64,000 nt of DNA from positions 169,284 through 233,283 of the IMG/VR virus record IMGVR_UViG_3300046536_000256; one strand, given 5' to 3'. Positions 9,358 through 42,765 of the stretch are shown here, piece after piece. This stretch comes from a virus. Under the pieces are notes generated by a model, which saw nothing but the letters and a program-made list of their open reading frames with translations, was not told the DNA's origin and searched no databases. A program made the translations under genes and the position numbers. The stretch's first letter is position 1, and every line of letters begins with the position of its first letter.

Positions 9358-12300
9358 TTACTTACCTCGATAAACAGCGACGGCCAATTTGGTGAATGCA
9401 ATGGTGAGTTCATTACTAACCAGTTTGTTCCGGAAGCTCAACACCATTCGGTTGAACATACCTTTCAAACTGGTCTTGATCAGAACCTCGCGACCATCTT
9501 CAGTCATCAGGGGTCTGTGCATGATCCGACCCACGGTGCCTTTCATTTGGTTCGCGATGACGTATTTGTCAGCGTTTGTACTTGGATCCATGGATTCAAC
9601 CAAGATGGTAATGAACGCTTTACCCGGCGACAGAATCGGCTTGTTAACGTTCAAACTGTTAGACACAGCACCCTTGGTAACATCAGAACCTTCGATCTCG
9701 GCTTTCTTCTTGCGGGCTTTGTCTTGAGCGTTGATGAACTTCCTCACGCTGTCCGACATTTCTTCAAGCGGTGAGTTGTACACCACCTCGATTTTGATGA
9801 CCTTACCGTGATGCTTGGAACGCACTTGTTTGATACCCAGTTTGTTCACTTCGGCAATGAGCACGGCTTCAGCAACATCCGCCACCAAGTGGGCGTCTTC
9901 AACGTTGCATAAAATCGAGTCATAGTCAACAGAATCACCCACTTTGACTTCCAAGCTGATGTTCTGAACCACATCGATCGCAAAGCGCATCCCCTTGATG
10001 TACGGAGTCACACCTTCCATTGCCAGTTCTTTCGCAATAGCAATGGAGTCTTCGTACACGTCTTGGTCTTCCACCATGGCAATCCGCACCATGCGACCCG
10101 CTTTCCAAGCCACTTGACCCGGGCAGAAAGGATCACGAGCAAACCACTGCTCATCCCAACCCAAGACATCGCCTTTCTGGAAAGTATCGCCAACCTTCAG
10201 GTCAGTGATCCGGGTATGACGATGGTACTCACCCGCAGCCTCACCGATTTCCAACCCCAGAGGGTAGACGTCAGTGGTCCCGTCCTTATAGGTCACTCTG
10301 AGAGCGTCCTCAGCGAGCTCTGTGACCTTCCCTGCATCAGCAGCAACCTTGCTGTACAGATCAGACGTACGGTGCGCTACGACGTTCTCGTAGCCTGTAC
10401 GGAGGATGTTCGGCGTGTAGTTCATTGCACTGACCGCCTGACTCGCTTGAGTCGAGGTAAAGGTCGACCGTTTAGGGTCATCGTGCCCAACGCCGTACTG
10501 AAGGTTACCCGTCACCGATACCAGCCCGGAATTGGACCCCTTGTCATCCTTAGCGATGTTACCCCGGAAGTCTTTAATGCGAGGGTCAGAAGAAAGGTAG
10601 GTTACGAAGCCTACTTTACCGCTGTCCTTGTTCGCCTCCGAGATGACCCCCTTGTACGTGTCAAGTTGTTGCCGGGCGCGCTTGACCATGGTGATCTCGC
10701 TACGACCGCCGACCCCACCAAAGGTAACCTCTTCCTGATCCTTCAACTGGTGAATCGGGTTCACCTCTTCCACCAAGTTCACCGAGGTATCGGTAATGAT
10801 GTTGAGGATGACCGCTTCAGGATTGATGTCAATGGAGTGCTTGCGCTCTTTGCCTTTGTTCCGGTACATACGGATGGCTTTAACCATCTCCCGGTACACA
10901 TGGCCCGCAAACCGCTCATACCCAACAATGCGTTGTTCGTCCAGCTCAACCTCATGACGAGAGAAGTCCGTTTCCAGCAACTTCACCGCGTCAATCAGCA
11001 GGTAGTGGAACGAAGTCGCGTAGCCCAACCGCGCCAGCTCTTCCTTGGTCACCGGATCGATAAACAGGTCAAACAGGTTCTTCATTTCCTTGAACTGCTG
11101 CGGCTTAACCTTTGGATCGCCCATCAACGGAACCCAGATACCTTTCTCGTTGAGATCGGTACGACTGAAGTTGCTGATGTTGTTCAGCTTCGGCATGCCA
11201 CCAAAGATCAGACTGGCCAACTTCTCACGACGGTTAAAGATCAGGTACTCGTCGTTGAACGCGATCGCGTACTCATCCTCACTGAGCTTAGGACGGGTGC
11301 CCATCGGAACAGAGCGGGTAGTAGCCCCAGTAACCTCAATCAGTTTGTCAATACCGAAGTAGTAACACAGCACAACGCCCATAGGGAAGTAGTAACCGCT
11401 GATGTTGATCACGGCATACTCAATCGGCGCTTTCGCCGTAGAGACACCCATTAGGCCTTCCACGGTGTTGATCTCGGTGTCCCCTTGGAAGAGGTTACCG
11501 AAACTGTCCACCCACAGCGGCTGCTTGTCCTTCACCCCTACCAGGAAAGCATCTTTCTTGGTGTACTTCTTGAACTCAGGGTGTTGAGTCAGCAGATCGT
11601 CAATACGGAAGTCGAGGGTAATGTCCCCAACCGTGATGAACACAAACTTCTTGGCCAGAATGGAGTAAATGCGTGGCGACGTGTATTCAGCACTGTAACC
11701 TGAACCTTGGCTGTACGTCAGGAAGGCAGGACCACCTTCAGGCTTAATACCCCGAATACGAATCTGCTTCACCAACCACAGGCCGTAATCGTCCACCACC
11801 TTCTGACTACGCAGCACCATGAGCTTGCGGTCATAGTAGCTGGTCAAGGCGACCTTAAAGGCGTTGATCTTGCGGAGTGGCAGTTCCATGCGTTGCAGCT
11901 GCATGTGTTGCTTCACGCCGTCCACGGTAAAAGTCCCGTCCTTCTGCACTTTAGGCAAACGGATTTGGTGGGTGCTCTGCGTACCGTCCACAGGGTGCAA
12001 CTGGATACGCAGGACGTCGTACGAACCTTCAACCCCGGAGATCACTTCCTGCTTGTAGTCCGCCACAGCAACACCGGCGTTCTGAATGCCCACAACCATC
12101 TTGGCGATGTCTTTGTGCAGGAAGCGTTGAGCGTACTCTTGTTTCAACACGGCGGAACGACTGCGGAGCATGCTGTCGTCAAGAACGGTGATGAAGTTAC
12201 CCTCGATCTTACCGTCCAACGAATCGATCTCCTCAGGAGAGATCTGCATGAACTCCCCCAACGTCTGACCGTTGCCCATTTCGATGTGCTGGTACGCAGA

Positions 12301-13683
12301 CCCCTTACGCATGAAGAAGTTCTGTTCAGAGACCGTCAAGGAGCCATCACGAGCCCGTTCTTCCAGAGCCGCTTTAATACCAGCCTCAGGAGTAGGGAAT
12401 GCATCTTTCTTGGTAGAGATTTCCACCGTGGTGGTTTCTACTTCCAGCAGAGCATCGTCTACGTGACTTGTCCAATCCCCAGCAGCTTCATCAATTGGAT
12501 GTTCTGCCTCATCTCCTTGCCCTTCCACCAGTGGACTGTTATTTCCCTGGTGACTCCCGAAAACATCAAGGATGCTACGATCAACAGAATGATCATCCAC
12601 AGGCGCATGCGAGCCAGTAGGCGTGGCTGCTTTTCCGTCACCGGATGCTCGTCCTTGCCCTTGCGCAGCTCCCTTCTCTCCTTGATCCACTGAAGCGTCG
12701 TTTTCCGCTCCTGGGGTTGGGGTTCCTGTTCCATCTTTCTTCTCCTCGTCAGAAATCTCCTTCTCGCTGACCGACCCACGCACTAGGTTCATCAACGCCA
12801 AGTAGAACCGCTTGGTAACGTTGATGCGTTTAGGCGAAACCCCTTCAGGTTTTTGTGCGCCTTCCTTGACGTGTGTGTCCAGTTCTTCGAGCCAGGACTT
12901 GATCGTTTTGATGTTGATGATCAAAGCCTTGCTGTTGGCGGTAAAGATAAAGTGAAGGTCGTCTTCCGCCTGAGGGGTTAACTTACCAAACAAACTGTAC
13001 TCATACTCGCCTTGCAGGAACGCCAACAAATCTAGCAGCCAGTAGCACCCTTCGGCTTTAGTTACCCGAAGAGACTGGTTACTAGGAACCGGAAGACCCT
13101 CTTTAAAGCTCCCAATATACTTTGCATAGTCGACCATCAAATCTTTGTAAGAAGGAATGTTAATAGGCAGTTCAAACCGCAGGAACTGCTTACGTGTTTG
13201 CGCGCGCTCAGCCTCGGTGTTCATGCCTTCAACCAGCATGTTCAACCGGTTGTAATGAATCTCGAAGTTGACAAAGGTAGCAGCACGCTGCGCCCAGGTC
13301 TTATCGGCAATGCCGTAGTTCTTGACGATCAGCACATCGTTGCGGCGATAAACCGTATTGATGTCTTTGGTCCAATTGTAGTTGTAGTGACTGGCGCGGT
13401 AAGACTGAATCGCCTTCTTGACATCAAACGCCAACACACGGCCATGCCCCATCACCGGAGTGAAACGAGGCACGAACTCAATGAACACATCTTCAGGGAA
13501 GTTCGAGATGAAAGCTTCCGACACAGAAGGACCAAACTCTGTAGCCAGCTTCGGCACGAAATGCACCAAGGCTTGCTTCGGCATGACAATCTCGCTCACG
13601 CCGATAAAGTTAGGCTCCATGAGCTCCTGTTTCTTCCGCTGTACAAACAGTTTAAAGAACTCACTGTACGTAAGAAGCCGCAT
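9358..13683 (-). CDS. Virion RNA polymerase beta subunit (phiKZ gp178-like)
   Basis: 1441 residues, ATG at 13683 with AGGAGT upstream. The C-terminal third has cellular beta-subunit landmarks in order: FQKGDVLGWDEQWFA, then EDQDVYEDSIAIA (like NFEDSI of bacterial beta), KHHGKVIKIEV, and ADKYVIANQMKGTVG (like the GDKxxxRHGNKG lobe). The chain therefore looks like a complete beta. Residues about 305-405 form a hydrophilic Gly/Glu/Ser/Thr/Pro-rich linker, and another gene is nested there. In phiKZ the virion RNAP is packaged, injected and transcribes early genes without host sigma factors. It is followed two bases later by the endolysin and preceded two bases earlier by beta-prime, so all three share a late message. 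Confidence 0.9.
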   Translation of the reverse strand: MRLLTYSEFFKLFVQRKKQELMEPNFIGVSEIVMPKQALVHFVPKLATEFGPSVSEAFISNFPEDVFIEFVPRFTPVMGHGRVLAFDVKKAIQSYRASHYNYNWTKDINTVYRRNDVLIVKNYGIADKTWAQRAATFVNFEIHYNRLNMLVEGMNTEAERAQTRKQFLRFELPINIPSYKDLMVDYAKYIGSFKEGLPVPSNQSLRVTKAEGCYWLLDLLAFLQGEYEYSLFGKLTPQAEDDLHFIFTANSKALIINIKTIKSWLEELDTHVKEGAQKPEGVSPKRINVTKRFYLALMNLVRGSVSEKEISDEEKKDGTGTPTPGAENDASVDQGEKGAAQGQGRASGDGKAATPTGSHAPVDDHSVDRSILDVFGSHQGNNSPLVEGQGDEAEHPIDEAAGDWTSHVDDALLEVETTTVEISTKKDAFPTPEAGIKAALEERARDGSLTVSEQNFFMRKGSAYQHIEMGNGQTLGEFMQISPEEIDSLDGKIEGNFITVLDDSMLRSRSAVLKQEYAQRFLHKDIAKMVVGIQNAGVAVADYKQEVISGVEGSYDVLRIQLHPVDGTQSTHQIRLPKVQKDGTFTVDGVKQHMQLQRMELPLRKINAFKVALTSYYDRKLMVLRSQKVVDDYGLWLVKQIRIRGIKPEGGPAFLTYSQGSGYSAEYTSPRIYSILAKKFVFITVGDITLDFRIDDLLTQHPEFKKYTKKDAFLVGVKDKQPLWVDSFGNLFQGDTEINTVEGLMGVSTAKAPIEYAVINISGYYFPMGVVLCYYFGIDKLIEVTGATTRSVPMGTRPKLSEDEYAIAFNDEYLIFNRREKLASLIFGGMPKLNNISNFSRTDLNEKGIWVPLMGDPKVKPQQFKEMKNLFDLFIDPVTKEELARLGYATSFHYLLIDAVKLLETDFSRHEVELDEQRIVGYERFAGHVYREMVKAIRMYRNKGKERKHSIDINPEAVILNIITDTSVNLVEEVNPIHQLKDQEEVTFGGVGGRSEITMVKRARQQLDTYKGVISEANKDSGKVGFVTYLSSDPRIKDFRGNIAKDDKGSNSGLVSVTGNLQYGVGHDDPKRSTFTSTQASQAVSAMNYTPNILRTGYENVVAHRTSDLYSKVAADAGKVTELAEDALRVTYKDGTTDVYPLGLEIGEAAGEYHRHTRITDLKVGDTFQKGDVLGWDEQWFARDPFCPGQVAWKAGRMVRIAMVEDQDVYEDSIAIAKELAMEGVTPYIKGMRFAIDVVQNISLEVKVGDSVDYDSILCNVEDAHLVADVAEAVLIAEVNKLGIKQVRSKHHGKVIKIEVVYNSPLEEMSDSVRKFINAQDKARKKKAEIEGSDVTKGAVSNSLNVNKPILSPGKAFITILVESMDPSTNADKYVIANQMKGTVGRIMHRPLMTEDGREVLIKTSLKGMFNRMVLSFRNKLVSNELTIAFTKLAVAVYRGK
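12459..12734 (-). CDS. Nested membrane-protein gene inside RNAP beta linker
   Basis: A 91-codon frame in a different phase from the beta gene. Its ATG at 12734 has an almost ideal ribosome binding site (GAGGAGAAGAAAG directly upstream). The product has a strongly charged N-terminus (residues 1-44, many Arg/Lys), one hydrophobic segment at residues 45-60 (MRLWMIILLIVASLMF context) and a 30-residue tail with HWW and Lys/Arg. Positive-inside favours N-in, C-out topology. The overlapped beta residues are exactly the low-complexity linker, where constraint is weak, as expected for overprinting. It could be a lysis accessory (spanin- or holin-like), but there is no homology to show it, and it may be chance. 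Confidence 0.5.
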   Translation of the reverse strand: MEQEPQPQERKTTLQWIKERRELRKGKDEHPVTEKQPRLLARMRLWMIILLIVASLMFSGVTREITVHWWKGKEMRQNIQLMKLLGIGQVT

Positions 13684-13685
13684 TG

Positions 13686-15302
13686 TTACTCCTCAAGACC
13701 GCTCGTAGCAGCCTTCAACATAAACAGAATCGGTTCGTTGACAGGGTCATAAAGGAAACGACCACTGCCACTGATGTAGTACTCGCGCTTACCGAACAAA
13801 GCATTGACTTCAGTCTTGCTGTCCTCGGCGTTCACGCTGTTGCTGTTCAACTGGTCACCGTCGTGGTCGGAGTCATAGCCCGCTTCACGAGAAGGGTCAA
13901 CCGACATGGCATCGAAGTAATCGGGGGTTTCTGTCCGATGTGGGTAACGGGTACAGGTTTCCAGCACTTCCCAATCGGGAGTACGGATGGTCCGAGTCTT
14001 TGCGCCTGTGATGGTCACTAGGTTCACCCGCGCCGGCACGATGGAACCGATACCAATGATCGGGTAACGTGTCTGTTGAGTGATCTGATCCATGACGGTT
14101 TGTTGGCACGACAGGTAGAACAGCTCCATGTACGTGATGGGTTTGACGAACTTACGATCCTTACCTTCAGGCAGGTCGTTGATGTCATAAAGCACACAGA
14201 CATCTTCGCCATCATCATAAACAAGGGCTAGGTAGTGTTTCTCTACCACGATCTCTTTGTTGCGCAAGTGCACGTTGGAGAAGCCGTTGAAGAGTTTGTT
14301 CAACCCGGTAAAGGTTGACCATTTCTCCACCACACTCGGGGCCACTTCGACGTACTCGTATTCGAGGGTCTTGGTGTTCACCAACTTCACTGTCTGCGAA
14401 CCTGGGGTAAAGATGTTCTGCAAGTACTTGCTCAGGAGAGCATGCACACAGACGTACTGGTTGTTCAGCAGCGCCTGATACAGACCGATGTCCGTCGAGT
14501 TAGGGTTAACTCCGTTAGGCTTGAACAAGTCAGCCCGGGAGACCTTACGCGCTGTAATAACGTTACGAGTCCCCGACACCACACCACGCGTTGACAGCCG
14601 CTTCTGAAACAAGCCACCTTTACCTTCAGTCAAACCGAAGAGGTACTGGTCGATGTCGTTGAATGCACTTTGCAAGCCCCAACGCACGTTGTCGTACAGT
14701 GGGTTCTCGGCATCCCGTTGACTTCCTAGGCTAATGACCCGGGTCTTGAAGATCAACTTACGGTACAGTTCGGTGATCTCGGGTTCAGTCGGAGTGCCGT
14801 TAGCTTGGAACTGAATGTCCCGTAAACCAGCCGGAATCACCAAGACCTTATTGCTCACCGAGATGTCGCGGAATTGGGTAACCAATTTCACCCGCTGCTT
14901 ACGTTTATAGGAATCGGTGCTGGCCGGGACGATTTCGTAGAAGTGACGCATAAAGAAAGCGAAACCGGTTTCACCGTCCAGCAGGTTGGATTTTATGAAA
15001 TCCTTCGCCTCTGGATCCCATACCGCGTATTCCGTTCCTTTGAGAATACTGAGGTACAAAGATTTTATTTGTGTCAGTGCTTTGAAGTAGGTTGGGTTGA
15101 AGAGCCCGAGCTTTGTGTCAATGTACGCTTCAGTCTTATCGCGCTCTTTACTACCCAGCTTACCGAAGATCTCTAAGGAGTACAGACCCTCGTCGTTCAG
15201 GTTCTGGGTCATCCCTTCAAAGGCGTCCGTAGACGTGACTTCTTTGAAGACACCCGGCACGATAGACTTGGGGTCTAGCAGTTTAAGGTTTGTGGGTTTC
15301 AT
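13686..15302 (-). CDS. Virion RNA polymerase beta-prime N-terminal subunit (phiKZ gp180-like)
   Basis: 538 residues. GKGGLFQKRLSTRGVVSGTRNVITA resembles the conserved GRFRxNLxGKRVxxSGRxVI region of beta-prime when read with gaps. GYDSDHDGDQ (Asp479, Asp481, Asp483) is the NADFDGD metal-binding triad of the active centre, with Asn replaced by Asp. The chain ends about 50 residues later, so the trigger loop and C-terminal parts must come from other genes outside the window, as in the split beta-prime of phiKZ-like virion polymerases. It is transcribed away from the 15332 gene; the 29-base gap between the divergent starts includes a ribosome binding site for each, and any promoters must overlap them. 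Confidence 0.88.
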   Translation of the reverse strand: MKPTNLKLLDPKSIVPGVFKEVTSTDAFEGMTQNLNDEGLYSLEIFGKLGSKERDKTEAYIDTKLGLFNPTYFKALTQIKSLYLSILKGTEYAVWDPEAKDFIKSNLLDGETGFAFFMRHFYEIVPASTDSYKRKQRVKLVTQFRDISVSNKVLVIPAGLRDIQFQANGTPTEPEITELYRKLIFKTRVISLGSQRDAENPLYDNVRWGLQSAFNDIDQYLFGLTEGKGGLFQKRLSTRGVVSGTRNVITARKVSRADLFKPNGVNPNSTDIGLYQALLNNQYVCVHALLSKYLQNIFTPGSQTVKLVNTKTLEYEYVEVAPSVVEKWSTFTGLNKLFNGFSNVHLRNKEIVVEKHYLALVYDDGEDVCVLYDINDLPEGKDRKFVKPITYMELFYLSCQQTVMDQITQQTRYPIIGIGSIVPARVNLVTITGAKTRTIRTPDWEVLETCTRYPHRTETPDYFDAMSVDPSREAGYDSDHDGDQLNSNSVNAEDSKTEVNALFGKREYYISGSGRFLYDPVNEPILFMLKAATSGLEE

Positions 15303-15331: not shown

Positions 15332-18300
15332 ATGGCTGACGATTATAGTTCGGATTGGGGCGATGATCCCTTTTCGGGGGACATGGATTTTGACAGTGAT
15401 TTTGACAGCCCGTCCAACCATGGCTTCCTGCGTTCATTTACCACAGGGTTTCTGAAAGGCTTGGTTGATAAGACCGTCGGTGATACTGACGCCCGAATCG
15501 ACACCTTGAAGATGGTGTTACCGCGCTCTTATCTGGGAGCGTTCAGCACACTAGGTGAGTTGAACCGCCGACGCACTGAGTTGATGCAAGAGATCAAGGG
15601 GGACTCCTACGAGTCCGTAAAAGACCTGCAATACCTTGCCGGACGCGCGGCAGATAAGCTCCGCAAGGTAGCTCCTAATAGAATCGCTGACGGTTTTCAG
15701 GAGTTCAGCAAAAACGATTTCAGTGATTGGGAGCGCTCTAGCAGCAGTTCTAGCAGTGATAGCGGACCTAGTCTGGCCGACACCACCGATGACGATGTAA
15801 AGGAAGCTCTGGCTGCTGCTGACGCAAACTCCATTCTGGAACGCGAAACAGTAATTGGCGCTGCCGGCACTATCACCGACATGATGGCTAACGTCGGGGG
15901 TCGTACCCTGGCTAACCTCTCGGCAATGGGTGCGGGTACCGTTCGGACGAATCAGTTGCTGGAACAAGTCGTTGATTATCAGCGCCGGGTTCAAGCGCGT
16001 AATGATTCCCTGAAACTCAACATCATGACTCGGTCGTACTTGACAGACGCTAAGTTCTACAAGTTCGTTGAGGCAAGTAACCACCGTATTGTTGCTGAAC
16101 TGAAGAAGATCAGCGAAAGCTCGGCTAAGTCGGACTACGAGAAGACCACCCACTCCCAAGCGGTACGTAAGAGTGTGCGGGAATCCGTGTTCAACACCGT
16201 CAAGGCCAAGGTCGGTGGTATTGCTGGGTTTATCGACGAGAAGTTCGGTAAGACCGCTCGAGGTCAATTCGGCAGAGACATCAATGAACTGACCAGCTCG
16301 GTACGCATGGCCGCCGAGATGACTGAAGGGATGAACATCAACCTCGGTGACATCCTGGGTACTGCGGCAGCGGGTATCTTCATCAATAACCTTCCACGGA
16401 TGATGAAGAGCGGCAAAGCCCAAGGTTATCTGAACGAGTTCAAGAAGAAGTTCCCGAAACAAGCCAAGTGGGCGGAAGACGCTTACATCCGTATTGGTGA
16501 CTTGGGTCACGTTGCGTCTTACACCTTGAGCAACGCTGAAGGCCTGACGAACACCATGGCGAAGTATTACCAAGGTGGCAACAGCTTCTCTGAGGCAGAC
16601 AGCTACGAAGAGTACTTGGAAACTCTTCCGCCTGGCGAGAAGCCGATGATCAAGTTCGATTGGACGATCTTGAACAAAGCAAAGCGGCTCGGTAATAAGA
16701 GCATCTCGGGCGTGTTCAACAACATGTCCAAGTCCAACGGCACGCGTTACAACATGGCGCGCCGTACGTTGGAAGATAGCTTTGAACAGACGCTGTGGAA
16801 CAAACGTTCTGATCGCACCTTGAACGAAATCCTGCCGCGGTGGTTAAGCCAGATTCACTTGTCCATCGAGAAGTTCCGGACCGGTAAAGATGACATGCGC
16901 GAAATGACCTACGACTATGTCAAGGGTAAGTTCGTTAGCCACAACCAGAAAATCAGCACCGTGCTCAACCAAGTGCTGGACAAGCGTCAGTTCAGTGCAC
17001 AGGCTGACATGGCGAATGGCTTGGCTGATCGGTTGGACAGCGACAACGCGATGAGTCCTGCCGCCAAGAAGGAGCTGGCGTTCCGTTTGGCGCACGATGG
17101 CGATATGGAGTTGGGGCTTAACCCTTACAACTACCTGCACACTGATAAGGAACACGGTGTCGCTCCGGAGATCGCTAAAGAAATCAAGGAGATGATCCAA
17201 GCTCAATTCGGTATCACCGATGAGCACATCAAAAAGTTCCAAAACGGGACTGACGTGGACCGTGGGAAACTGTTGACGTACATGCCAACGGAAGCGGGTC
17301 GGGCTAAACTTGCTGACCTTGCTCCTCAGGCTCAAACGTTGGCTGCCTTTACCCCGGACATTGTTAACCGTCTGGACTTGTACAAGTCGAATGGGTTTTA
17401 CGAGCCATTAAAGGAAGCGGGCATCGTCAAGTCTGAAAACGGCTGGGACACGGTGAACATGGACATGATGCGGTCTACGTTGCGAGACTTCATTAATGAT
17501 CCTAAACGCGAAACCGCGCAATCCGTTCCTGACGAGGCTCCGTTGCCAAGTCGTGTGTTTGGTGGCGGTGGCGGTCCAACACCACCGGGTCCTGGTCCTA
17601 CGCCTGAGTTCCAGTGGCCGGCGTATCCGAAGTTCGAGTGGCCAGAGTTCCCAGCACTTCCTGCGTGGCCGGCTTATCCACCGTTGCCGGGTCCAGCAGG
17701 TCCTTCTCTGGGCCCTACACCTCCAAGCAATCCTGGTCCTAGTGTTCTCCCGCCGGCTGAACCTCAATCGGTCACGCTGAACGGGATGGAGGACCTAACC
17801 AAGTCTCTGGCGGGTCTGGGTGACTTGAAAGCCAGCATGGATCAGTTGGGTAAATCCTTCTCGGGTTATCGTCCTCCTGAAAATGACGCGGTCTTTGATG
17901 TCAAGCCGATTGTCGATGGCTTCGAAGGGGTAAACAAACGCCTTGAAGCGCTGATGGTTAGCGCCAATGCCCGGAACCAAACCCTGTCTGACATTCTCCT
18001 GCGACAACCTCCGAAACAGAAGGAAGTCTCGGACAGTGATGACAAGGAGATGAACCGGGAAAAGAGAGGTATCCTGGAGAAACTCAAAGGGACTTCCTTC
18101 CGCGACATCTTTAACAATGGCGTGGACAAAATCCTGGATAATCAACCGCTGATTCTGGGTGGGTTACTCGGCGGCTTGGCGGGCATGGCGGTGTACAACC
18201 CGAAAGGGGCTGCCCTGCTGGCGGGTGGCGCGGCTGTTGCAACGGCTTATATGAAGATCAAGAGTCTGTCCACAGCACGTTCGGCGAAAGCTACCGAAGA

Positions 18301-21300
18301 CTTGTACGAAGAAGGGAGCGAGACACCTATCCTGGAAGCGAACAAGCTGTTGAAGGGTGACTACCTGGACATGACGTCGGGTTTCATCATCGACAGCTGG
18401 GACAAGATCACGGGCAGCCTGAAGGACATCACCAACAACACCATTATTGGCGCGCGTCGTCTGGCGGGCAAACTGTTTAACCAAGAGAACAAGGAAGTGT
18501 TCATCTCTGGGTTAAGCAAGATGCGGGATGCCATGATGAAAGCGTGGAACGCTATGGACCCTTTCTCCCGGGTCAAGCGTTGGGGCAATGCGTTGAAGAC
18601 GCGTTTCTACCAGATGGACGTGTATAAGGAAGGGGACGACTCACCGACACTCGTTGGGAAACGTTTTGCGTCGGGTGCTTACTGCAAGCGTAACGAGTCC
18701 GGGGAACTGGTCGTCATCAACGGCTGGAATGAGATCGATGGTCCGGTGTTCACGCCTGAGGGTGATGTCATCATCACCAAGGAAGAGTACGACCGTGGGT
18801 TGAGAACCTCCATGGGCGTCAGTGTCAACAAGCTTCAAGATGGTTCCAAGAAATTGGGTCGTCTGGGTCTTGACTTCCTGGGCAAGATGAAAGACAAAGC
18901 CTCTCCATTCATGAAGGGTGCTTACGACAAGGGTAAAAGCGCGCTGACGGTGAACTACGCACCGATCGTAAACGCTGTAGACCGCATCTACAACCTGTTG
19001 CTGAAACACTGGGGCTACCAGCAGGAAGAAGGGATTGAACTCCCTGAAGCGGCTCCTGCGCAGGCTGAGGTCGTGGACAGCACTGCTACTCCGGTCAAAG
19101 TTGGTATTGCCGCCAATGATGATGTAACAGTTGACCCTCAGGCTCCGATGCCGAAGCACGCAACTATCCAGCCGAAGTCTACACTGGACGCTGCGGTCGA
19201 TGTGGTTAAGGAGAAGCTCACAGCTAACACCCCTCACGGCCGCCTGAACTCTTTGGCCGATAAGAAGGAACAAGCCAAGGAGAAGAAGGAAGACGCCACC
19301 AAAGATGCGATTATTCATATCGCGCAGAACTTTGGTTTCGGTGAGAAGAAAGGGGATGACAAGAAGAAACCGACTGGACTGTTTGGATTGCTGGCAAGTG
19401 GCTTTAGCGCTATCGCCGGTGGGATGTGGGGGATTACCAAATTCTTCACGCGTAACCTGCTGGGTGGCTTTAAGACCTTGTTCAGCTTTGGTTCGTTGGG
19501 TCTGAAAGTCCTGCCTGTCCTGGCGACGGGTATTACCGCCGTGGCTAAGGGGATCTTCACCCTGATCAAAACCCGCAGCATTAGTGATGCGGGCGCTGAC
19601 ATGTGGGACACCGTGCGTGGTCGTAAGACGGGTGCCCGCAGTGCGCGTGGTCGTCGTCCTCCACGTACTCACGCCCAACGTCTAAAGACCGGTGGTAAGT
19701 TGTTGGGTGCCGGTATGGCGATTGACATGGCGGGCGAGTATCTACAGGACGCTGGGATTGTCGATGAAGGCTCCACTACCGATAAGGTGATTAACGCAGC
19801 CAGTACTGCCGCCGAAGTGGCGGGTGCTTACCAAACCGTAGTGGGTGTGGGCGGTGCGCTGGGTGTTGACCTTGGCGTGGGCGCTTTGGCGACTGGTGCA
19901 GGGGCTGCTGCTGCAACTGGAGCATCGTGGCTTGCCGGTACTAGCGCCGCGGGCTGGGTGGCTAGCATGGGTATCGCAGCTGCTCCTATGCTGTTGAACC
20001 CGTATGTGTTGGCAGCCGTTGGTGTGGCCGCGGCTGGGTACGGGATCTACCGGTATATAAACCGAGGAGAGGGGAAGCAGACAGAGCTTCGTTTGACTCA
20101 GTACGGTGTTTCCGATACCGACTCTGATCTGGCGAAGAAGATCCTTAAAGCTGAAGAGATGATGTCGAGTCACGTCGTCATTGGTAACGGTCGCGCTTCG
20201 TTCTCGAAGCAGAGTCCAATCAATGAAGTGATTCAGATGTTCGTCACCGACCCGAAGAACAACAAGGAAGTGGGTGATGTGTTCACCTGGTTCAACGGTC
20301 GATTCAAACCCGTGATGCTGACGTACATGGCGTGTCTTGATACTGTCAAGATAAAATCGTTTAAGGAATACGACGAGGCCAAGACTCAGGACGTCTACAA
20401 GGTGGCGAAACAGGCTCACCAAGGACTTAGCGGACTTCAGCCGTACCCGTACTCGATCACCGCGAAGATTGACTCCGATACCCCACTTCTGGGCGAGAAG
20501 GCAACCCTGATCCGGGTTAACAACTTACTGGAAGACTTGAAAGAGTACATCGATCGCAAAACCCCTTCGGATGATCTGACTGCTATCACCACGCCTAAGT
20601 TCCAGACCAAGGCAGGCCTGGAGAAAGAGAAGGCGGAACTTCAGGCCAAGCTTGATGCGCCGCGTGGGTTCTTTGACAGCGACAAAAAGATTGCATCGAT
20701 TGGTAAAGCGGAAGACCGACTGAAACAAGTGGACGAGGAAATCAAACGCCTCAACGACTCGTACAAAGTGGGTGGTATTGTCGGGCAGATTTACATCAAG
20801 GACTTGATGCCTGACGACAAAGCCATGGACCTGATGACCGCCATTCGCGTGGCGTGCTACGGCAACGACCAGGACGTTACTTGGCGCGTTGAAGCAGTGC
20901 TTAAGCTGGAGCGGTACTGCGAGCCGTTGTTCAGGGACACGGGCGATACCATGGAGTTCACTGGGCAGATTGGGGACATCTTCAACCTGTTCAAAGATTC
21001 CTTCCGTGTGGATAAGGGTGAAGCGGACGATTGGTGCCTGTGGTTCCGTGACCGGTTCTTGCCGGTTCTGACGAACTACATGACCGTCATGAAGAAGTAT
21101 CGTCGTGGTCGTCCGGCCGTGGTGTGGAAAACTTTGTCGGCAACGGCACGGTATGAAATCTCCAAGGCACTGGTAGAGACCAAAGGGAAAGGAACCCTGT
21201 GGTTTGACTTCCCTATCTGGAGCGTACGCGCCTCACCGTTCAAAGACAGTGCATCGCCTGATAAGCCTGAGAAGGTTGATCGGATGCTTAAGCTGTTGGG

Positions 21301-23389
21301 TGAAGCCAGTACTGCCGCTAAACTGAAAGACCCTGAAGGTGAAGCTGGTAAAACGAACGCACAGACCTGGGCGAAGACAATCTCTCCGCACAAAGTCGGT
21401 GGTGACTTCCAACCTGAGGCTGCTAACGTCGATGACATTAGTAAAGCCAAGACTCGTCGTGATGTAGGGTTGAATGGTCAGTTCGGGACCAACGGGATCA
21501 GTTCCGGTAGCATCTACGGACCAGGGGGTGTGTACAAGACCCCTGAGAACAAGTATGGGTTCATTCCGCTGGGCGGCGATAGCGACACCAGTCACCTGGA
21601 CATGTCGGGCGTCAAAGCGCAAGAAGGCAATGACAAAGGGGTCAAGGTTCCGAAGAAGCTGGCTCAGCAAATCCTGATTCGGGAAATGTTGAAACAAGGC
21701 TTTACGGATCCTCGGGAGATTGCAGAAGTACTGGCGTTGACCGACTACGAGTCGCAGGGTTATCAGAACACCACTGAGAGCCTGAAGTACTCGGACCCTC
21801 GTCGTTTGGTTGAGATGTTCAAAGAAGTTAAGAACGTTGACCAAGCCCGGATGTTGATTGACCAAGGTGAAGTAGCAATTGCCAACACTGTTTACGGTGG
21901 CGGTAAGGGCGCGTCGATGGGTAACCGTGAACCAGGAGACGGTTGGAAGTACCGAGGACGTGGCTTCATCCAGCTGACGGGTAAGAACAACTACGATAAA
22001 GTCGGACAAGAGTTGGGGATCGACCTGGTTAACCACCCAGAACTCGCTTCTACCGACCCGAACGTCATGGCCGCCGTGGCGGTTAACTTCTTCAAGAACA
22101 GCAAGCTGATGCGAAGCATCAGTCAGACCGGTGACTTTGGTCAGGCTGCTGCCGGGCTTAACCCTGGTGCTACACTTCCAGGGATGCCTAAACGGTATCA
22201 GCTGTACTTGTCGTACTTGGAACAGTTGCAGAAAGGTGAGCTCTCCACAACCACAGGTACCGCTGAAGATCCTGCGGCTGCTGAAAGTACAACGGCCGGT
22301 GACATGTACGGCGGTTCGAAAGGCGGCGGTGGTTCCTCCACGTCTAGCGGTGGTGGTTCGGTGCCTGCTATCGGTAGTCCTAACCTGCCTTCCCTAACCA
22401 ACTCACCTTCGGGTGGCTCGGCTTCGGGTAACTACAAAACACCTGCTCCGGCTGGTGGTGGCGGTTACGGTAGCAACCCTGCAACAGGTCCTAGCGGTGG
22501 TGGTGATCTGCTGGTTAACAGTAACGCTCGCGGTTCGAGTGGGCTTCGTCTGAAGTCTCCAGAAACCGTAGGCGGTGGGCAAGTGCACCCGGGTCTAACC
22601 CGTCTGTGCCAAATCATTCAACAGCGAGTCCCGGGCTTCAAGGAATTCACTGCACTGAACGATGCTTACCACGTCAACAAAGGTTCTCAAGGGGCTCACC
22701 CTAAAGGGCTGGCGGCTGACTTTACGTTGACCAACGGCATTGCTGGGAGTGATCAAGCTGCAGCGATGGTGAACCAGGTTCTGCAACAAGCAGGTCTGCA
22801 ACCGGGCACTGAGTTCTTGGTCATCAACGAGTACAAGAAGAAGACCGCGATCGGCACAGGCGGTCACGTCCACGCAGGCTTTAAAACGCCGGCAGCGGCG
22901 CAGAAGTTCTTGGATGCAGCGGGTGGTGCTCAGACCAATGGTCCGGATACTACAGGTGGCGGTGAAGTGGCCCCTACTGAGGCACCTAATCGCGCACAAC
23001 CAACGTTGCCACCAAGTGCGGGTCCTGGCGCAGACGGCGCAGATGGCGGTTCCACAGCTCCAGGTGGGCAGCCTCCAGGCGTCGAAGCGGGACCAGGTCG
23101 TACAGGGTTGCCACTGCCTTCATCTCCTCCACCTCAACAGCCGCTTCCAGAGGGTTACCGAGGACCGGCTCCTACCCAGGCGCCACCACCTGCACCTGTT
23201 GCAGCACCACCGGCAGCTGCACCGTCAGTGGATAACAGTGCGGAGTTGGCTGAGTTGATGAAGTCACTAGTAGCCGCAACACAATCTTCCGGGGGCGACA
23301 ATGCTGCTTTGTTGAAAGCCGTCCTGGACCAACTGGTTCAACTGAACAAGAAGGGGACTCCAGCTCCTCAAGGCGTGAAGGTGAACTAA
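15332..23389 (+). CDS. Giant virion protein with GH19 glycosidase and M15-like peptidase domains (phiKZ gp181-like)
   Basis: 2685 residues, ATG preceded by TTAGGAG. The N-terminus is acidic. Residues 50-720 are helical. Residues about 740-820 are Pro/Trp/Gly-rich with repeated WPxYP/WPEFP units. Hydrophobic Gly/Ala segments occur near 940-980 and 1500-1580. Residues about 2100-2300 match GH19 chitinase/lysozyme: LTDYESQGYQN, GDGWKYRGRGFIQLTGKNNY, then NPGATLPGMPKR. Residues about 2410-2530 resemble M15 peptidases: GAHPKGLAADF and GGHVHAGF supply H-x(6)-D and HxH zinc ligands. Gly/Ser/Pro-rich linkers surround both domains. phiKZ gp181 is a virion peptidoglycan hydrolase; this one probably opens the wall during injection, cutting both glycan and peptide. 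The late position and single long frame fit a tail component. Confidence 0.85.
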   Translation: MADDYSSDWGDDPFSGDMDFDSDFDSPSNHGFLRSFTTGFLKGLVDKTVGDTDARIDTLKMVLPRSYLGAFSTLGELNRRRTELMQEIKGDSYESVKDLQYLAGRAADKLRKVAPNRIADGFQEFSKNDFSDWERSSSSSSSDSGPSLADTTDDDVKEALAAADANSILERETVIGAAGTITDMMANVGGRTLANLSAMGAGTVRTNQLLEQVVDYQRRVQARNDSLKLNIMTRSYLTDAKFYKFVEASNHRIVAELKKISESSAKSDYEKTTHSQAVRKSVRESVFNTVKAKVGGIAGFIDEKFGKTARGQFGRDINELTSSVRMAAEMTEGMNINLGDILGTAAAGIFINNLPRMMKSGKAQGYLNEFKKKFPKQAKWAEDAYIRIGDLGHVASYTLSNAEGLTNTMAKYYQGGNSFSEADSYEEYLETLPPGEKPMIKFDWTILNKAKRLGNKSISGVFNNMSKSNGTRYNMARRTLEDSFEQTLWNKRSDRTLNEILPRWLSQIHLSIEKFRTGKDDMREMTYDYVKGKFVSHNQKISTVLNQVLDKRQFSAQADMANGLADRLDSDNAMSPAAKKELAFRLAHDGDMELGLNPYNYLHTDKEHGVAPEIAKEIKEMIQAQFGITDEHIKKFQNGTDVDRGKLLTYMPTEAGRAKLADLAPQAQTLAAFTPDIVNRLDLYKSNGFYEPLKEAGIVKSENGWDTVNMDMMRSTLRDFINDPKRETAQSVPDEAPLPSRVFGGGGGPTPPGPGPTPEFQWPAYPKFEWPEFPALPAWPAYPPLPGPAGPSLGPTPPSNPGPSVLPPAEPQSVTLNGMEDLTKSLAGLGDLKASMDQLGKSFSGYRPPENDAVFDVKPIVDGFEGVNKRLEALMVSANARNQTLSDILLRQPPKQKEVSDSDDKEMNREKRGILEKLKGTSFRDIFNNGVDKILDNQPLILGGLLGGLAGMAVYNPKGAALLAGGAAVATAYMKIKSLSTARSAKATEDLYEEGSETPILEANKLLKGDYLDMTSGFIIDSWDKITGSLKDITNNTIIGARRLAGKLFNQENKEVFISGLSKMRDAMMKAWNAMDPFSRVKRWGNALKTRFYQMDVYKEGDDSPTLVGKRFASGAYCKRNESGELVVINGWNEIDGPVFTPEGDVIITKEEYDRGLRTSMGVSVNKLQDGSKKLGRLGLDFLGKMKDKASPFMKGAYDKGKSALTVNYAPIVNAVDRIYNLLLKHWGYQQEEGIELPEAAPAQAEVVDSTATPVKVGIAANDDVTVDPQAPMPKHATIQPKSTLDAAVDVVKEKLTANTPHGRLNSLADKKEQAKEKKEDATKDAIIHIAQNFGFGEKKGDDKKKPTGLFGLLASGFSAIAGGMWGITKFFTRNLLGGFKTLFSFGSLGLKVLPVLATGITAVAKGIFTLIKTRSISDAGADMWDTVRGRKTGARSARGRRPPRTHAQRLKTGGKLLGAGMAIDMAGEYLQDAGIVDEGSTTDKVINAASTAAEVAGAYQTVVGVGGALGVDLGVGALATGAGAAAATGASWLAGTSAAGWVASMGIAAAPMLLNPYVLAAVGVAAAGYGIYRYINRGEGKQTELRLTQYGVSDTDSDLAKKILKAEEMMSSHVVIGNGRASFSKQSPINEVIQMFVTDPKNNKEVGDVFTWFNGRFKPVMLTYMACLDTVKIKSFKEYDEAKTQDVYKVAKQAHQGLSGLQPYPYSITAKIDSDTPLLGEKATLIRVNNLLEDLKEYIDRKTPSDDLTAITTPKFQTKAGLEKEKAELQAKLDAPRGFFDSDKKIASIGKAEDRLKQVDEEIKRLNDSYKVGGIVGQIYIKDLMPDDKAMDLMTAIRVACYGNDQDVTWRVEAVLKLERYCEPLFRDTGDTMEFTGQIGDIFNLFKDSFRVDKGEADDWCLWFRDRFLPVLTNYMTVMKKYRRGRPAVVWKTLSATARYEISKALVETKGKGTLWFDFPIWSVRASPFKDSASPDKPEKVDRMLKLLGEASTAAKLKDPEGEAGKTNAQTWAKTISPHKVGGDFQPEAANVDDISKAKTRRDVGLNGQFGTNGISSGSIYGPGGVYKTPENKYGFIPLGGDSDTSHLDMSGVKAQEGNDKGVKVPKKLAQQILIREMLKQGFTDPREIAEVLALTDYESQGYQNTTESLKYSDPRRLVEMFKEVKNVDQARMLIDQGEVAIANTVYGGGKGASMGNREPGDGWKYRGRGFIQLTGKNNYDKVGQELGIDLVNHPELASTDPNVMAAVAVNFFKNSKLMRSISQTGDFGQAAAGLNPGATLPGMPKRYQLYLSYLEQLQKGELSTTTGTAEDPAAAESTTAGDMYGGSKGGGGSSTSSGGGSVPAIGSPNLPSLTNSPSGGSASGNYKTPAPAGGGGYGSNPATGPSGGGDLLVNSNARGSSGLRLKSPETVGGGQVHPGLTRLCQIIQQRVPGFKEFTALNDAYHVNKGSQGAHPKGLAADFTLTNGIAGSDQAAAMVNQVLQQAGLQPGTEFLVINEYKKKTAIGTGGHVHAGFKTPAAAQKFLDAAGGAQTNGPDTTGGGEVAPTEAPNRAQPTLPPSAGPGADGADGGSTAPGGQPPGVEAGPGRTGLPLPSSPPPQQPLPEGYRGPAPTQAPPPAPVAAPPAAAPSVDNSAELAELMKSLVAATQSSGGDNAALLKAVLDQLVQLNKKGTPAPQGVKVN

Positions 23390-39909: not shown

Positions 39910-42765
39910 ATGATTATGTACAACCCATTCTCGGTTGGTGTAAAACAGACCGGAGTCTATGTTCATGTAACAGGGGTCTCGTTTTACAACCTGGCCAAGG
40001 ACATCGAGAAGTTCTACTCAACGGCACTTGTTACAAAGTATATGATTCGCCGTGAGACCTGGGACACGATCAAAGTCCACAATTTCTTTTTGGTTGAATT
40101 GCATTTCTTACTGGGCGAATTGCTTAAGTTAAAGACCCTGCGCAGCCGTCGTCGTGCTTTGAGTGAACTGCGACAATTACTGGAGACCGAGACTTGGATT
40201 AAGGACACGGTCACTCCTTCGGGCAAACCTTTCGACTTCAAACGATTGGACGCCTTTACCAAGAAGCCTTTCCCGAAACAACAGGAGTTCTTGGAACAGT
40301 ACCCGCTGATCTGTAAGAGTTACCACCTTAAAGGCATCCTGCTGGACTCTGTGCCGGGTTCGGGCAAAGCAATGCCTAAGAGTACCAATGTCAAGGTACC
40401 GGGCGGCTGGAAGCCTCTGGGGTTGATCCAGGTGGGTGACCAAGTGATGACCCCGAAAGGAACGGTCACTCAGGTAGCCGCGGTGCACCCACAAGGTGTT
40501 ACCGAAGTTTATCGCTTTCACTTCGAAGACGGGCGTTGGGCGGACTCTCACCCTGAACACTTGTGGCAGGTGGATGAGATCAGCTACGTTGATGGGGAAA
40601 CCATCATCACCCCCGACAACGTTACCACCACACAAGACATCTTGGATCATTTTCAGGATTACGAGTATCAGATCCCGTTGGTTGGCAAAATCAATGGCTT
40701 GCTGTGCGCTGAAGGGGTTGCCTCCATTGAGGTGGCTGAAGAGTTATTGCTATCAAGTATAGTGATGGACGATCCGGTTTTGGAACTGCCGTACGTTGAA
40801 CGGTTTAACATTGCTAAGGCGATGCTTGGTCGTTCGGGCTGCCAGATCTCTCCAAGGGGCGTTGCGTTCGTTACCACTAACGGAATGGCCGCTTCTAACT
40901 TCCAGTCGTTGATCTGGAGTTTGGGTGGCATCGCTGAGAAGACCGTGTTTAACGACACCAGCTTCCGGATAGATGTCTACCATCAGGACATTGAAGAGTT
41001 GGTCAAAGACCTGCTAGGTCCAAGTCTGCAATTGGATCAAGTCCTTGACTTGTCGGTCTACCAGAACCTGCGGCTGAAGATCGTGGGTGTTGAGAAACGG
41101 GCCAACGAAGAAACCCTCTGCATTACAGTGGATGACGCTGATCACTTGTTTGTGGTGGACGACTACATTGTCACGCACAACACCTTCACGTCGTTGATGT
41201 GGTCGCACCTACTGGGTGATAACAAGACCATCATCATCTGCCCGCTAAATATTGTGGACAGCGTGTGGATGGCTCAGATCAAGGAGCACTTCAAAGTCAC
41301 TCCTCGGATCTGGAACAGCAAGATGGGGATCCCGCTGAACGGTAACTACGATTACTACATCGTACACTACGACGCGCTGGTGGGTCCTCGTTTCGCTTAC
41401 CTGCGGGAATGGATGAAGGACATACTCAGAACGGACAAGAAAAAGTTCAAACTGATTGTGGACGAGTCGCAGAACTTTAACGAGATCACGGCGAAACAAA
41501 CCCAGAACCTGATTGAGTTGGCTGACCTACAATTGTTCAGTGATGCTCTGCCGGTGTCTGGGACGCCGTTCAAGGCGTTGGGGAGCGAAATCTACCCCAT
41601 GCTCTGCATCTTCGACTTGCACTTCGACAGCATCGCTAGGGAGTTCTTTAAAGCGTCGTATGGGCGTAACCGACCTTCGCTCATGGGAATGTTGTCTCAC
41701 CGGATTGGGCGGAGTAAGTTTACCATCCCTGAGTTGTTAGGATTGGGTGATGCGCCAGCGATTGAGATCGTCAAGGTACAGGTCCCGAACAGTGACAAGT
41801 ACACGCTCGACTCGATCAAGCTGGAGATGCAGGTCTACATCCAGGAACGGGTGGCTTTCTACGAAGAACAGATGCCTAAATACATCGCCTTCTTCAATGA
41901 AATCCTGAAAGACTACGAGTTCGACAACATGAAGAATCCGCACGAACTGGAGAACCTGAAGAAGTACCGGGTGATCGTGAAACGGTTCCGTGAGAAAGGG
42001 TACAGCAGCTTTACTGACTCACAGGACAGCATGTTCTGTAAACGGGTAGAGGAGGACATCGAGAAGCGGCTTAGAGGTAAAGATCTCGCAGATTTCCGTA
42101 ATGTGAAGTCCGCAGTGAAGTACCTAGGGTTGAAACTTCGGGGTGAAGCACTCGGTAACGTTCTCGGTCGCGCGCGCATCAATGCGATCAAAGAAACCAT
42201 TGAACACGCCAAGCTCGAAGACTACATCAACGACGTTGAGAAGAAGACGGTGATCTTTACCTCTTACGTTGACGTCCTGAAGCTCTGTGACGAGTACCTG
42301 ACGCGAAAAGGCTTCACTGGGATCACAGTGTACGGTGAAAACAGTAAAGACCGTGACGCGGCGATTAAGCGCTTTGCAGAAGACCCTCGGGTTAACCCAT
42401 TGACCGCGGTGTACGACTCCCTTAAGGAAGGTTACCCGTTGTTGATGGCTAACCAAGAGTTGTTGCTCAATGCCCCATGGCGTGACTTTGAACTGAAACA
42501 AGTTCAAGCCCGCATCTGGCGTACAGGGCAAGATGCTCCATGCTTCTTCCGGATGTTCGATATGGACACTGGGGATAAGGTCAACATCACTACACGCAGT
42601 ATCAACGTGATGGAATGGTCGAAGGAACAGGTCGACGCCTTGTTGGGTCGTAGTGAAGGGCATGCCTTGCTTGCTGACGTTACGGGCGAGGAGATGTTTG
42701 ACATGAGTGACGAAGCGTTTAGTCGTCCAATGTTCCGCAGTAACAGTGTGTTGGATCTGTTCTAA
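39910..42765 (+). CDS. SNF2-type superfamily 2 helicase with in-frame intein
   Basis: 951 residues, AAAGGA before the ATG. After intein removal 680 residues remain. Residues 147-153 plus Thr425 make the Walker A (SVPGSGK then TFTS). KTIIICPLNIVD is motif Ia, IVDESQNFNEI motif II (DESQ), VSGTPFKALG motif III. The C-terminal lobe has KKTVIFTSYVDVLKLC and QVQARIWRTGQDAP, the QxxxRxxRxGQ motif VI typical of SNF2 proteins. These translocate on double-stranded DNA using ATP; in phiKZ-like phages they are thought to act in replication or transcription. It needs protein splicing to become active. It follows the divergent 39886 unit and ends at a strong hairpin. Confidence 0.88.
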   Translation: MIMYNPFSVGVKQTGVYVHVTGVSFYNLAKDIEKFYSTALVTKYMIRRETWDTIKVHNFFLVELHFLLGELLKLKTLRSRRRALSELRQLLETETWIKDTVTPSGKPFDFKRLDAFTKKPFPKQQEFLEQYPLICKSYHLKGILLDSVPGSGKAMPKSTNVKVPGGWKPLGLIQVGDQVMTPKGTVTQVAAVHPQGVTEVYRFHFEDGRWADSHPEHLWQVDEISYVDGETIITPDNVTTTQDILDHFQDYEYQIPLVGKINGLLCAEGVASIEVAEELLLSSIVMDDPVLELPYVERFNIAKAMLGRSGCQISPRGVAFVTTNGMAASNFQSLIWSLGGIAEKTVFNDTSFRIDVYHQDIEELVKDLLGPSLQLDQVLDLSVYQNLRLKIVGVEKRANEETLCITVDDADHLFVVDDYIVTHNTFTSLMWSHLLGDNKTIIICPLNIVDSVWMAQIKEHFKVTPRIWNSKMGIPLNGNYDYYIVHYDALVGPRFAYLREWMKDILRTDKKKFKLIVDESQNFNEITAKQTQNLIELADLQLFSDALPVSGTPFKALGSEIYPMLCIFDLHFDSIAREFFKASYGRNRPSLMGMLSHRIGRSKFTIPELLGLGDAPAIEIVKVQVPNSDKYTLDSIKLEMQVYIQERVAFYEEQMPKYIAFFNEILKDYEFDNMKNPHELENLKKYRVIVKRFREKGYSSFTDSQDSMFCKRVEEDIEKRLRGKDLADFRNVKSAVKYLGLKLRGEALGNVLGRARINAIKETIEHAKLEDYINDVEKKTVIFTSYVDVLKLCDEYLTRKGFTGITVYGENSKDRDAAIKRFAEDPRVNPLTAVYDSLKEGYPLLMANQELLLNAPWRDFELKQVQARIWRTGQDAPCFFRMFDMDTGDKVNITTRSINVMEWSKEQVDALLGRSEGHALLADVTGEEMFDMSDEAFSRPMFRSNSVLDLF
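40369..41181 (+). other. Intein (class 3 signature) in helicase Walker A motif
   Basis: Helicase residues 154-424 (271 residues) interrupt GSGK/TFTS. The first residue is Ala, not Cys/Ser. Block A is STNVKVPGGWKPLGLIQVGD. Block B ends EHLWQV with Trp at intein position 66. Block F is TLCITVDDADHLFVV with Cys251. Block G is IVTHN with Thr269, His270, Asn271, followed by Thr+1. Trp-Cys-Thr with no nucleophile at position 1 is the class 3 pattern, where the block F Cys forms the first branched intermediate. Between B and F, GLLCAEGVAS and FQSLIWSLGG look like worn LAGLIDADG blocks without clear catalytic acids, so homing activity has probably decayed. Confidence 0.85.

Follow-up and report, generated by a model that had tools for sequence, protein, structure and literature searches.

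A predicted class 3 intein with a degraded endonuclease in the Walker A motif of an EL-like phage SNF2-type helicase

The DNA analysed here is a 64-kb window, positions 169284–233283 of a virus record of 233,283 bases. On its plus strand, at 39910–42765, lies an open reading frame identified by its Pfam domains and its similarity to Pseudomonas phage EL gp166 as the gene of an SNF2-type (RapA-like) helicase with an intein. The precursor has 951 aa, of which 680 aa are expected to remain after the predicted splicing. Both SNF2-rel_dom and Helicase_C are found above the Pfam gathering score, the protein matches PHROG 62, and the identity with EL gp166 is 58% over the whole length. Elsewhere in the window, two RNA polymerase beta-type subunits are encoded at 9358–15302 on the minus strand (PHROG 3148 and 2986), as in phiKZ-like phages. 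A 2685-aa protein (15332–23389, plus strand) matches a tail fibre family and has an endolysin-like stretch at residues 2116–2330.

The translation of 39910–42765 reads LLDSVPGSGK^AMPKSTNVKV...EHLWQV...ETLCITV...DDYIVTHN^TFTSLMWS, in which the carets enclose an insert placed in frame between K153 and T425 of the Walker A motif (GSGK^T). The N-extein side of this motif, GSGK, occupies residues 150–153 (40357–40368, plus strand), as seen from the translation and the alignment. The intein of 271 aa follows, from A154 to N424 of the precursor (40369–41181, plus strand), delimited by empty-site alignment, by the match to 6bs8 and 6rix and by an AlphaFold2 model. Next comes Thr425 (41182–41184, plus strand), which by translation and alignment is both the +1 residue and the Walker A Thr; it is the predicted second splicing nucleophile and would later be a residue of the P-loop. 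A sequence-only reading of this stretch had proposed a 271-aa insert at 40369–41181 that splits GSGK from T, and the translation shows these coordinates to be exact. Empty sites with exact junctions were found in Erwinia phage RisingSun (GSGKTFLSLI) and Klebsiella phage Miami (GSGKTFTSLM). The same reading had staked its boundaries on insert-free homologues aligning across 153/425, and the alignment to inteinless homologues does close there, with no gap and no extra residue in RisingSun or Miami. The site is also empty in Vibrio phages pTD1 and Aphrodite1 and in many metagenomic contigs, where the helicase G-x-GKT is uninterrupted; it is filled in EL, FishSpeaker, PDCC-1, PhiPA3, SL2 and others. 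Two trivial origins of the insert were ruled out: an RNA intron, as the reading frame stays open throughout the insert, which begins and ends with protein-splicing motifs, and an assembly artefact, as independent contigs carry the same insert at 62–80% identity.

The N-terminal splicing (Hint) part of the insert (40369–40683, plus strand) was assigned by alignment with 6bs8 and from the model. It comprises block A, which starts with Ala and thus has no Cys, Ser or Thr nucleophile at position 1, and block B with His64-Leu65-Trp66 (40558–40566, plus strand), whose Trp is the W of the WCT triad. By alignment, the C-terminal splicing part comprises blocks F and G and spans 41059–41181 on the plus strand. 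Block F holds Cys251 (41119–41121, plus strand), the predicted splicing nucleophile, which falls on the 6bs8 catalytic Cys in the alignment, and block G holds Thr269-His270-Asn271 (41173–41181, plus strand). In class 3 numbering, the Cys stands at block F position 4, the Trp at B12, the His at B10 and the Thr at block G position 5, followed by His-Asn and by Thr at +1. The Ala start, Trp66 (EHLWQV), Cys251 (LCITV), Thr269 (VTHN) and the +1 Thr are thus all located where the first reading had seen them. A set of 55 phage inteins was taken from three host genes. All of them (55/55) have His64, Trp66, Cys251, Thr269, His270 and Asn271, and none begins with Cys, Ser or Thr. Because six residues are conserved without exception across inteins from three host genes, a chance origin of the triad is excluded.

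Structural comparisons point the same way. A phmmer search against the PDB matched 6bs8, the Mycobacterium smegmatis DnaBi1 intein (E = 1.6e-5), with W66, C251 and THN in register, which bears out the expectation that the triad would fall on blocks B, F and G. The M. chimaera DnaB1 intein (6rix/6riy), like DnaBi1 a natural class 3 structure, was matched at E = 0.005–0.01. The gp41-1 intein (6qaz) was also matched, and its engineered WCT form 6riz was the best (E = 1.8e-8), again with W66, C251 and THN in register in the printed alignment. The AlphaFold2 model of the 271-aa intein was predicted with a pLDDT of 91.2 and a pTM of 0.90. Using Foldseek, this predicted model was found to resemble 6bs8_C, with a TM of 0.85 by 6bs8_C length (E = 7e-7), and PI-SceI-type full inteins, which indicates a Hint fold. 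By its motifs, its matches to solved class 3 structures and its predicted fold, the insert is, as had been claimed, a class 3 intein, and it lies within the P-loop of an SNF2-type phage helicase. It adds another example of an already known class. The view that class 3 inteins are uncommon has to be given up, as a 2020 catalogue counted 1,701 in nr, 82.5% of them with LAGLIDADG motifs (PMC7891396), and the class 3 motifs were present in all 80 relatives fetched here, THN, as part of a search pattern, not being counted as evidence.

Between the two splicing parts, at about residues 106–230 (40684–41058, plus strand), lies the remnant of a LAGLIDADG endonuclease, the C-terminal half-domain only, delimited by comparison with the model of the L048 intein from IMG/VR and by dN/dS. 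At the same site, the inteins of FishSpeaker (LLGDG and LLDTDG), PhiPA3 and L048 have both LAGLIDADG motifs; the L048 intein matches Pfam LAGLIDADG_3 and Hom_end, and its predicted model has both half-domains. The window intein is about 70–85 residues shorter than these full-length relatives. Its first motif is absent, and alignment with the three shows that the second has become IAKAMLGRSG (40810–40839, plus strand), in which the acidic residue of LLxGLxDTDG is lost; the pair of acidic motifs is therefore not there. The model of the intein contains one half-domain, with helices at 117–128, 142–155 and 172–184 and strands between them, and no Pfam endonuclease domain was matched in the 951-aa precursor. 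Judged from sequence and model, the endonuclease looks dead, one half being deleted and the other having no acidic residue; the loss of DNA cleavage is a deduction from homology.

The remnant has nevertheless not drifted freely. For the remnant (residues 106–230), six close pairs were compared: pairwise dN/dS, a rough measure here as dS is 0.7–1.7 and near saturation, was 0.06–0.16 in all but one of them, which gave 0.34 with an upper bootstrap limit of 0.62; the splicing parts gave 0.03–0.11 and both exteins 0.05–0.06. On the whole, the remnant changes faster than the splicing domain, yet it is under purifying selection and far from neutral (dN/dS about 0.1). The simplest explanation is that the intein fold needs it structurally. 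Strong constraint on the exteins and the splicing domain is expected if splicing must work for a helicase to be made. The endonuclease region had earlier been described as looking worn: it is indeed degraded, but the word is too loose for a domain that has lost one half and whose remaining half seems dead but is constrained.

When the insert was used to search the entire record, two further class 3 inteins came up, both outside the window and both with the WCT triad. One, of 254 aa, interrupts a second SF2 helicase at GFGK^T (L014:1650-3962; G000:C1:115652-117961, minus strand). The other, of 314 aa, interrupts the large terminase at RQQGK^T (L015:1167-4466; G000:C1:152169-155465, minus strand). 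The ORF immediately upstream of the second helicase gene (319 aa; L014:3981-4940, minus strand) matches HNH_3 and may encode a free-standing homing endonuclease. The GFGK^T site is empty in several relatives. Regarding the three sites together, RisingSun, Miami and Aphrodite1 have the terminase intein only, PhiPA3 has only the one at the SNF2 site, and pTD1 has none.

In an intein tree built without a class 1 outgroup, the site labels are strongly clustered (10 changes vs a shuffled mean of 29), and the three inteins of this genome fall in three site-specific clades. These separate clades rule out that a single intein was recently copied into all three genes. Jumps between genes are suggested elsewhere in the tree. 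The SNF2 and second-helicase inteins of the Shewanella phage FishSpeaker (L009 and L123) are sisters with a support of 100/98 and have intact endonuclease motifs, a pattern that probably reflects a recent transfer between the P-loops of two genes of the same phage. With weaker support, the inteins of EL gp39, an RNA polymerase, and of the EL second helicase lie near this pair. EL carries four class 3 inteins, in gp11, gp39, gp40 and gp166; InBase lists EL inteins in ORFs 11, 39 and 40. The gp39 intein (L154:709-3819) interrupts a GK^S of an RNA polymerase subunit and has both LAGLIDADG motifs. Inteinless relatives read NASGK^SLINN or GAGK^SLITN at this point, and the gene is not a P-loop ATPase.

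Insertion sites were also compared in the best 80 relatives from a bacterial and archaeal genome collection. These were fetched with patterns from the intein alone and their flanks were thus not built in; they are the most similar ones, not a random sample, and were taken as bacterial by record title. The upstream residues are GK in 72, GR in 7 and GN in 1, while 75 have Thr at +1 and 5 have Ser. In seven relatives from actinobacterial records (L178, L195, L220, L225, L235, L238 and L242), the insertion point is PLAYMRGR^TLND, a GR^T that is not a Walker A motif, in proteins that are PhoH-like by motif.

The helicase tree comprises 78 proteins, 24 with and 54 without the intein, and the SNF2-site intein requires at least eight changes forced by strong branches. 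Close helicases can differ: G014 has the intein, whereas L054 does not. Within the EL-like clade, by contrast, all members (13/13) have it; the intein and extein trees share three subgroups, the order of which differs at a branch that is weak in the intein tree. The intein is therefore fixed and inherited with the gene in the EL-like clade, and sporadic elsewhere. In favour of a homing element that is still active, with a working LAGLIDADG endonuclease, are the same-site relatives, which keep both motifs or match LAGLIDADG_3 and are scattered over the tree. For the window intein, this is scarcely credible: it lacks the first half-domain and has AMLGRSG as its second motif, Pfam finds no endonuclease, and inheritance in the EL-like clade tracks the extein. 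In this one data set, intact endonuclease motifs are associated with sporadic occurrence and a dead endonuclease with vertical descent.

Almost certainly, the SNF2-type helicase of this EL-like phage is interrupted in its Walker A motif by a class 3 intein that splices in cis and whose endonuclease is dead. The chemistry of splicing can be proposed from homology. In the precursor, the Hint domain would break the P-loop. Cys251, helped by His64 and Thr269, would attack the Lys153-Ala154 bond, the N-extein would move to Thr425, and Asn271 would cyclise. Ligation of the exteins would yield GSGKTFTS, and the rejoined GSGKT loop would make the helicase competent for ATP. The homing endonuclease would once have given mobility; now that it appears dead, the intein would pass down with the gene. 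It was reported that the Swi2/Snf2 helicase of phiKZ-type jumbo phages is linked to the phage RNA polymerase, and a RapA-like role was suggested (PMC7824862). By analogy, the EL-like helicase may have such a role.

Since the precursor has an interrupted P-loop, use of ATP should need splicing, and a block before splicing is very likely. The sequence-only reading went further and took splicing as a switch for helicase activity. According to this view, the intein would be retained because it acts as a switch after translation, with the helicase inactive until a certain condition arises. The position in the P-loop, which should prevent ATP binding before splicing, would suit such a role, and in M. 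smegmatis DnaB, H2O2 inhibits a class 3 intein of the P-loop via the catalytic Cys of that intein (PMC6195587). Fixation in the EL-like clade though the endonuclease looks dead, the constraint on the remnant and the presence of a class 3 intein in each of three P-loop ATPases of one genome can be read in the same direction. However, rare precise loss would equally give fixation with a dead endonuclease, and a folding need would equally explain the constraint. When the second Cys of the DnaBi1 disulfide (Cys48) was sought by alignment, Val47 was found instead. Two further cysteines, Cys113 and Cys158, lie in the linker or remnant and may offer an alternative disulfide. Furthermore, the same helicase does without an intein in relatives (54/78). 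The switch is thus unlikely, and regulated splicing goes beyond what is supported here; splicing is probably constitutive. The opposite possibility, a relic that no longer splices and leaves the helicase inactive, has a precedent in the class 3 intein pseudogene of Arthrobacter Arth_1007, which, however, has no block F Cys (PMC3196547). It is highly improbable here, as every catalytic residue is intact, the splicing residues are all kept in 13/13 clade members, and the exteins are under the strong constraint described above.

The annotation of these proteins deserves a remark. In the annotations examined, SNF2-site records of EL-like phages are not named as inteins; they are called 'putative ATP-dependent helicase domain' or 'DarB-like antirestriction'. 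The latter name stands in RefSeq on unlike intein-bearing proteins (L005, L007, L010, L011, L012 and L151), namely the SNF2 helicases of EL, PDCC-1, PhiPA3 and SL2, the second helicase of PS1 and a mycobacteriophage helicase. PHROG profiles 50, 510, 15 and 19299 match the intein alone. The 'DarB-like antirestriction' name has probably been passed on through the intein, which suggests that wrong protein names may spread in annotation via inteins.

Taken singly, the SNF2-helicase intein is ordinary; its value lies in the set of P-loop inteins to which it belongs. This set includes three related class 3 inteins in one genome, each at K^T of a Walker A motif, the probable jump between two FishSpeaker helicases, the entry at GK^S of an EL RNA polymerase, and sporadic inteins with an intact endonuclease beside fixed ones with a dead one. 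With such a set, the preference of inteins for P-loops becomes testable: it may lie in the target DNA, in a ready-made +1 Thr or in regulation. A bolder scenario is that the class 3 lineage spreads into GK^(T/S) codons of unrelated genes wherever these are present, and that in EL-like phages it has been domesticated, with the SNF2 helicase, the second helicase and the terminase each inactive until splicing and the half-endonuclease kept as a structural or sensing domain. As a whole, this is to be regarded as speculative and rather doubtful.

A literature search for inteins in phage EL or phiKZ-like helicases found no report in the titles, abstracts and passages covered. Among known systems, the Deinococcus radiodurans Snf2 intein, for which efficient splicing is reported in papers that cite the original work (Brace et al. 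2010, cited in PMC3196547 and PMC5222942), is also a class 3 intein in an Snf2-family protein; its host is bacterial, and the likeness is drawn from these descriptions only. The mycobacteriophage TerL1-a intein separates two invariant Walker A residues, the Lys and the Thr (PMC5050341). By that paper's description, it shares the phage P-loop K/T site with the window intein, but in a terminase instead of a helicase. The M. smegmatis DnaBi1 intein is a class 3 P-loop intein in which the Walker A Ser is the +1 residue, and a dual role of this Ser has been described (PMC6195587). It shares the P-loop site with the SNF2-helicase intein, and in both, a Walker A residue serves as +1. DnaBi1 (6bs8) and M. 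chimaera DnaB1 (6rix/6riy) resemble the window intein in the WCT triad, the missing position-1 nucleophile and the Hint fold. Both are, however, mini-inteins in a replicative helicase, whereas the window intein has half a LAGLIDADG domain and resides in an SNF2-type helicase; DnaBi1 has the redox partner Cys48, and the window intein does not. The inteins of PhiPA3 gp233 and L048 have the gene family, the site and the WCT triad in common with the window intein, but are longer (344–345 aa), have both LAGLIDADG motifs and are sporadically distributed. The closest counterparts are EL gp166 and the other SNF2-site inteins of EL-like phages, which share the gene, the GSGK^T site and the half-endonuclease architecture. 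EL gp166 differs from the window protein by sequence divergence only, the intein being 42% and the whole protein 58% identical.
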